Below, in pieces: positions 7,293 to 9,881 of a stretch of 49,228 nucleotides of DNA. The notes under the pieces are model-generated. The model was not told the origin of the DNA. It searched no databases and was given only the letters and a program-made list of their open reading frames with translations. Source of the stretch: an uncultured bacterium (GTDB taxonomy: Bacteria > Verrucomicrobiota > Lentisphaeria > Victivallales > UBA1829); assembly GCA_949297765.1 (NCBI GenBank), contig CASFTV010000040.1, positions 1 through 49,228 of the forward strand, read 5' to 3'. Positions within the stretch are counted from its first letter, which is position 1; the number at the start of each line of letters is the position of its first letter. The translations under genes and the position numbers were made by a program.

Positions 7293-7337
7293 GGTCCATT
7301 CCTTACGTTTCAGTTGAAAATTTGTTATTTATGCGGT

Positions 7338-7366
7338 AATATACATCCATTTCCCCTGTTTTTACA
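7338..7366 (-). promoter_or_regulatory. Possible promoter for ileS-trpS
   Basis: On the minus strand TATATT (7338-7343) lies about 45 bases before the ileS start, the same -10 hexamer as at other genes here. The -35 is poor: TGTAAA at 17-base spacing. It is divergent from the promoter of the metallopeptidase gene. Confidence 0.4.
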
Positions 7367-7405
7367 GCCGGGAAAGCGGAAAATGGCGAAAATAATTCAA
7401 ATCCC

Positions 7406-7434
7406 TTGTTTTCTCCGGAACGGCGTGGTATACT
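7406..7434 (+). promoter_or_regulatory. Promoter of the LIM-like metallopeptidase gene
   Basis: TTGTTT (7406-7411), 17-base spacer, TATACT (7429-7434), about 25 bases before the GTG start at 7459. An AGGGGAA ribosome site sits between the two. Confidence 0.5.
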
Positions 7435-7458
7435 TCCGGAAAACAGGGGAAAAATGGT

Positions 7459-8376
7459 GTGCGGATGATGAAACGATTGTGGATGCTTTTTCTGATCGTT
7501 CTGCCTCTGCTGCTCGCGGCGGCGGAACGGTGTGCGGTCTGCCGGAAAAAGCTCTCCGGAGAGGTGCTGAAGTACAAGGACCGGTGGTATTGTTCGATCC
7601 GGTGTCTGAAGAAAGTTCTTCCGAAATGCGCGGTCTGCGGGGAGCCGATCGCGGGAACCTACGCTGTCTTTCCCTCTCCGGACGGGAAGGAACGGATTCT
7701 CTGCCGCCACTGTTCCCGTCTGACCCGCTGCTTCTCCTGCGAACTGCCCGGCCGGACAAAGCGTCTCCCCGACGGCCGCTATCTCTGCGACGAGTGTGAC
7801 CGGCAGGCCATCCGCTCTCTTCCGGAGGCGGAAAAACTGCTGGAGGAGGTCCGCGGGAAACTGGAAGACCTGCTCGGCGACCCGGTCCCTGCATTGTTCC
7901 GTTTCCGGATGGTGGACTACCCGGAACTGCTGAAAACCGCAGATCTGCGTTCCGGGGATACCGCCATTGAGCTCGGGCTCTGCCACGCGAATTTTTTCGA
8001 ACGGCGGATCGGCTCTCTCCGCAAAATCGTGAAGATTGAATCGGAAATTCTGATACTGGACCATCTTCCCCGCTGGCGGTTCATCGAAATTGCCGCGCAC
8101 GAGCTGGCGCATCACTGGCAGTACCACGCCGCGCCCTATCTGCGGGATCGCGTTCTGCAGGAAGGATTCGCCGAATATATGGCATCGCTCGTGAACCGGG
8201 AGTTCGGACAGGAACACCTGAACCGGCGGATCGAACAGCGCCGCGATCCGGTGTACGGCACCGGATTCCGCCGGATTCGCACTATCGCCCGGAAGCAGGG
8301 ACTCGACGGCGTCAAAAAAGCGATTCGGGAAGCGGGCGGAAATGCCGCGGCGTCCGCCTCCGCGTCCGCCCGCTGA
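7459..8376 (+). CDS. Exported LIM-like zinc-finger protein with DA1-like HExxH metallopeptidase domain
   Basis: 305 residues from GTG 7459; ATG 7465 and 7468 are alternatives. A short signal peptide (KRLWMLFLIVLPLLLAAAE) suggests export or lipid-independent membrane anchoring. Residues 25-113 hold three consecutive Cys pairs of pairs: C25/C28 with C45/C49, C57/C60 with C82/C85, and C91/C94 with C110/C113, a LIM-like zinc ribbon array. The rest is a zincin-type domain with HELAH at 214-218 and a candidate glutamate ligand in EGFAEY (E235 or E239). LIM fingers followed by HExxH and a downstream EEG/EGxxE block is the arrangement of plant DA1 peptidases. No substrate can be inferred. It converges on the oxidoreductase operon and has no partner gene. 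Confidence 0.75.
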   Translation: MRMMKRLWMLFLIVLPLLLAAAERCAVCRKKLSGEVLKYKDRWYCSIRCLKKVLPKCAVCGEPIAGTYAVFPSPDGKERILCRHCSRLTRCFSCELPGRTKRLPDGRYLCDECDRQAIRSLPEAEKLLEEVRGKLEDLLGDPVPALFRFRMVDYPELLKTADLRSGDTAIELGLCHANFFERRIGSLRKIVKIESEILILDHLPRWRFIEIAAHELAHHWQYHAAPYLRDRVLQEGFAEYMASLVNREFGQEHLNRRIEQRRDPVYGTGFRRIRTIARKQGLDGVKKAIREAGGNAAASASASAR

Positions 8377-8402
8377 CCGTTTTTTGCGTTCCCGTTGTCC
8401 CG

Positions 8403-9881
<1,479 letters not shown>

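Follow-up and report, generated by a model that had tools for sequence, protein, structure and literature searches.

A predicted exported DA1-like zinc peptidase with a modular LIM-like cysteine array in Lentisphaerota

What is a peptidase of the plant DA1 kind, preceded by pairs of cysteines that recall zinc fingers, doing behind a signal peptide in a bacterium? The question is posed by a GTG-initiated ORF of 305 aa at positions 7459-8376 (+) of the window, the 49,228-nucleotide stretch of DNA analysed here. Taken together, our data are best explained by an exported DA1-like zinc peptidase with a docking zinc array, serving as an envelope endopeptidase (probability roughly 0.6). AGGGG at 7445-7449 (+), 9 nt 5' of the GTG, is a likely ribosome-binding site judging from the sequence; a promoter-like site at 7314-7342 (one found vs. 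0.4 expected in a scan for promoters and terminators) is not relied on. An antisense open frame of 431 aa (7303-8598, -) covers the gene, and homology supports the plus-strand frame as the coding one. That a bacterial gene joining LIM-like and DA1-like parts is real, as the initial annotation held, is confirmed. Homologues at E<=0.001 were present in 48 of 61 genomes searched (own genome included), all four of the genus among them, and the family is common in the phylum.

Residues 119-299 (7813-8355, +) make up the DA1-like gluzincin domain. In a Pfam search the window protein scored 29.8 bits with PF12315 (DA1-like; cut-off 25), which agrees with the peptidase assignment made at the outset, and 27 of the 30 aligned homologues matched this profile at E<=0.1. 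The HELAH and EGFAEY motifs reported earlier are present at residues 214-218 and from residue 235, respectively, giving an active site HELAH-x16-E (H214, E215, H218, E235; 8098-8163, +); HExxH with a downstream Glu recurred in 83 of 83 family ORFs from the named loci, where L085 and L090 are without a complete family ORF. Invariant among the 30 aligned homologues were H214, E215, H218, E235, G236, Y266, G267 and G269, the last three lying in YGTG (residues 266-269; 8254-8265, +) within the best PF12315 stretch, together with C82, C85, C91, C94, C110 and C113; C25, C28, C45, C49, C57 and C60 were at least 90% conserved, and C175 was not conserved. Because the cysteine and catalytic residues are invariant or at least 90% conserved, we dismiss a chance origin of the pattern. 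Alignment A1 comprised 30 of the 31 proteins from L001-L030 (L011, a near-copy, was omitted), and A3 held 29 of these 30, the short paralogue from L028 being left out. A six-frame search with PF12315 at E<=0.001 was positive for 49 of 197 class genomes and for 36 of the 387 genomes sampled across the phylum; the same search missed the window's own gene and genome, so the sequence match is thin and in pieces.

The AlphaFold2 model, calculated from a 30-sequence input (pLDDT 93.3, pTM 0.85), placed the peptidase domain close to M1-type gluzincins, with ERAP2 as the best match (6ea4_B, Z 11.1, rmsd 3.1 over 149 residues), and the alignment profile matched aminopeptidase N in the PDB around the HExxH (E 8.8e-5). 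The window protein thus shares the peptidase-domain fold and HExxH...E with M1 aminopeptidases such as ERAP2 and PepN; unlike these, it is much smaller, lacks the GxMEN motif (0 of 83 family ORFs) and scores below the cut-off of PF01433 (Peptidase_M1; 14.9 vs. 27.7 bits). No NCBIfam family came above its cut-off for the window protein, and no DA1 entry was present among the best 60 of the 115 PDB matches to the alignment profile. As modelled, the protein would have an M1-type gluzincin fold behind treble-clef-like units, with a weak resemblance to LIM. We hold it to be highly probable that it is a member of the DA1-like (PF12315) gluzincin-kind zinc peptidases, stand-alone and exported.

In front of the peptidase, the three CxxC pairs of the initial annotation proved to be six Cys pairs (C25/28, C45/49, C57/60, C82/85, C91/94 and C110/113), whose 12 conserved cysteines amount to three C4 units. 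The N-terminal unit, CxxC-x16-CSxxC (residues 25-49; 7531-7605, +), is a repeatable module in the alignment and is modelled as a beta hairpin with a short helix; the remaining four pairs form a LIM-like core (residues 57-113; 7627-7797, +) with the spacing CxxC-x21-CxxC-x5-CxxC-x15-CxxC. This core adjoins the peptidase in 78 of 83 family ORFs, with any further CxxC-CSxxC units situated N-terminal to it. Among 84 proteins counted, the window protein included, the majority (56) carry eight Cys pairs, the window protein and six others carry six, and the tandem paralogues of rumen bacteria carry four only, with one aligned protein, from L029, having three extra units. Judged from these sequences, the array is modular, with a four-pair core and 0-3 additional units.

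A LIM domain follows the consensus CxxC-x-[HC]xxC, a two-residue linker and CxxC-x-Cxx[CHD]. This canonical spacing was absent from the window protein and from all 83 family ORFs, a pattern that must be considered strict since it also missed the protein encoded by L031 (751-1839, +; genome G078, same class), which lies above the LIM profile cut-off, with true LIM domains (PF00412, 71 bits in two stretches). The window protein itself reached 10.8 bits with PF00412 (cut-off 22.9), its genome yielded no PF00412 match at E<=0.001, and 9 of the 30 aligned homologues matched the LIM profile at E<=0.1. Of the LIM-type array claimed at the outset, what is supported is the place of LIM domains at the head of the structural neighbours, weak as these matches are; both the profile score and the spacing (0/83) fall short, in contrast to the DA1-like half of the profile check, which came out above cut-off. 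LIM domains occupied the first rows of the Foldseek search with the full model (E 6.6e-3) and the top of that with the array alone (E 7.5e-3, a weak match), the latter model (pLDDT 92.6) showing three units, each a hairpin plus a helix; VIA-align gave a best LIM match of Z 4.4 and rmsd 6.1, also weak, and neither model had a Foldseek match in the PDB at E<=0.001. With PF00412, whose members are its best structural neighbours, the array has in common a tandem of putative C4 zinc units that resemble treble clefs; it differs in that the linkers are 5-7 residues rather than 2, the Cys pairs of the window protein are without His and the score is below cut-off. The array is best described as LIM-like, as profile and spacing do not place it among LIM domains proper and the fold comparison points there weakly. 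These same two shortcomings, together with the matches of some family members to the zf-FLZ, DZR_2 and zf-FCS profiles, speak for an array of generic treble-clef zinc units, unrelated to LIM and fused to a DA1-like peptidase, an explanation that we find unlikely given that LIM chains lead the sequence-profile search of the PDB (Lhx4, E 8.5e-7) as well as the array structure searches, and that the L031 protein with its true LIM domains matched 33 of 33 family members tested (blastp E<1e-3), although the peptidase alone may suffice for the latter result.

The genomic neighbourhood bears on what the exported peptidase with its zinc array might act upon. The window gene is a solitary one: its neighbours, ileS/trpS on one side and ferredoxin oxidoreductase genes on the other, are all encoded on the opposite strand. 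A conserved operon was considered and rejected, as the window's ileS, trpS and oxidoreductase had no blastp match at 1e-10 in the ORFs of the 74 loci; the largest neighbourhood ORF clusters, which mix real and shadow ORFs, were excluded from counts. A mraY gene in the same orientation is located upstream of the family gene at 9 of the 74 loci (L059, L068, L070, L050, L056, L057, L090, L052 and L081), its identity being confirmed by TIGR00445 with 285-346 bits in 3 of 3 proteins tested (L056, L059, L081). These loci are of Lentisphaerota and Delongbacteria type, i.e. two phyla; in L059, L068 and L070 mraY is separated from the family ORF by 1-4 nt, and L056 and L057 have a Peptidase_M55 (D-aminopeptidase) gene interposed. 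With neighbours otherwise not conserved, the mraY link is the sole functional hint that gene context appears to offer. It favors, along with the M55 gene, a cell-wall enzyme or regulator of wall synthesis, in which the exported peptidase would target peptidoglycan peptides or the proteins that build the wall; we regard this as improbable, since the DNA examined at 65 of the 74 loci is without mraY (flank lengths vary and some contigs are short), ptsI is found nearby at 14 of 74 instead, and the neighbours of the window gene are those named above.

Support for an envelope endopeptidase comes from the N-terminus. The start of the window protein, MRMMKRLWMLFLIVLPLLLAAA (residues 1-22; 7459-7524, +) followed by ERC, reads as a signal peptide with Lys-Arg, a hydrophobic core and AAA, in keeping with the initial annotation. 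Under a crude hydrophobicity rule applied to the 83 family ORFs, a Lys/Arg-then-hydrophobic start was seen in 79 vs. 68 of 255 neighbouring control ORFs, and the controls dropped to 27 of 255 once later membrane segments were excluded, a later hydrophobic segment being found in only 1 of the 79 family ORFs. Four ORFs failed: those of L041, L086 and L107 appear truncated by contig ends, and that of L049 passes a looser scan. The export signal thus appears near-universal in the family. Zinc in an exported Cys-rich array is an assumption on our part, disulphides being a possible alternative. Twelve free cysteines would suit a reduced cytoplasm, as expected if the N-terminal segment were an uncleaved anchor holding the enzyme at the cytoplasmic face, like the intracellular plant DA1; this is quite improbable in our judgement, as the Lys-Arg before the hydrophobic stretch and the AAA at its end are in the style of a signal peptide. 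The positive-inside rule sets which side of the membrane flanking segments take, and because of it the remainder of the protein would lie outside even with an anchor.

Nearly all of the 74 loci in the named genome collection belong to Lentisphaeria or Victivallales (Lentisphaerota), with Victivallis vadensis DSM 14823 (L055) and Lentisphaerota strain zth2 among the carriers, and four are labelled Candidatus Delongbacteria. Contamination is an unlikely source of the latter because, of the 13 Delongbacteria genomes searched, 9 carry the family. In a quick tree of 83 rows, which has weak deep forks and omits L041, L086, L107 and L109 as truncated or outlying, six rows from Delongbacteria (three so labelled and three added via the phylum search) formed one clade (support 99) within the Lentisphaerota rows, a topology that suggests transfer. 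Two scans of viral contigs gave no relatives, plasmids held nothing matching the L031 protein, and a defence-system library had nothing for this protein or the window protein. Many loci derive from gut and rumen bacteria according to locus titles, yet a secreted effector against ubiquitin-type proteins of an animal host seems far-fetched, the family being present also in strain zth2 and in Delongbacteria.

As to origin, which had been called unexplained, earlier literature offers a precedent. In Dong et al. (2017, PMC5322733), which cites Burroughs et al. 2011, the C-terminal region of the DA1 family is said to resemble predicted Roseiflexus proteins with four CxxC/H pairs; LIM-like DA1 peptidases were thus already on record for bacteria. 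With these Roseiflexus proteins the window protein shares, on that description, four CxxC/H pairs and a DA1-type peptidase in a bacterium. We found no published account of the exported, extensible form in Lentisphaerota or Delongbacteria, with Burroughs et al. 2011 known only via PMC5322733. What may be new here is the predicted exported form with its zinc-finger arm of variable length, bacterial relatives of DA1 being already known. Compared with plant DA1/DAR (PF12315), the gluzincin active site, the C-terminal YGxG stretch inside the profile match and the placement of LIM-like Cys pairs ahead of the peptidase (plant layout as given in PMC5322733) are alike; in contrast, the window protein is predicted to be exported, has CxxC/CxxxC pairs only, and possesses an extra N-terminal CxxC-CSxxC unit. 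A UIM was not found, none of the 17 Pfam matches at E<=10 for the window protein being to a UIM family and its N-terminus being signal-peptide-like.

For the exported DA1-like peptidase we propose the following mechanism, which we judge to have an even chance of being right. It builds on what computation supports, namely the family assignment, the zinc-ligand and catalytic residues, the predicted fold and the widespread export signal. The protein would be exported via Sec and have its signal removed. Each C4 unit would bind one structural zinc, three in the window protein, and one catalytic zinc would be held by H214, H218 and E235, with E215 as the general base. The zinc array may pack against the peptidase and dock a protein partner or substrate, a role proposed by analogy because plant DA1 activity needs its LIM-like domain: according to PMC5322733, cleavage by plant DA1 requires its HEMMH and is lost when a Cys of the LIM-like domain is changed. 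The enzyme would then act as an endopeptidase cutting envelope or secreted proteins, without ubiquitin. PF00240 (ubiquitin) had no match in the window's own genome, a null result shared by every control.

This large exported bacterial branch probably acts without the ubiquitin switch of plant DA1. One may speculate further, against the odds as we see them, that DA1-like peptidases of the exported kind, with their extensible zinc-finger arm, represent an ancient, bacterial, ubiquitin-independent DA1 module, based in the envelope and linked to the wall via mraY in some lineages, with plant DA1 a later cytoplasmic, ubiquitin-wired use. The exported branch offers a simple system for asking what a zinc array does for its peptidase, with natural variants of zero to three extra units at hand. 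The L031 protein resembles the window protein in joining a zinc array to a DA1-like peptidase (PF12315, 74.3 bits) and differs in its true LIM domains and the absence of a hydrophobic N-terminus; since the former lacks the export start and the family has it, the module occurs in bacteria in both forms.

At 12 loci, a tandem paralogue with the four-pair core only immediately precedes the longer family gene, with a membrane protein of ~296 aa downstream (tandem-paralogue loci: L064, L067, L071, L072, L076, L077, L080, L082, L099, L101 and L105). Separately, a Mem_trans transporter gene (auxin-efflux-carrier type) was noted divergent to the family gene in the Delongbacteria loci L052, L061, L065, L069 and L081. 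A Kiritimatiellae protein of 461 aa (L109:2900-4285, +) also matched PF12315, with 32 bits, and has a different Cys layout.
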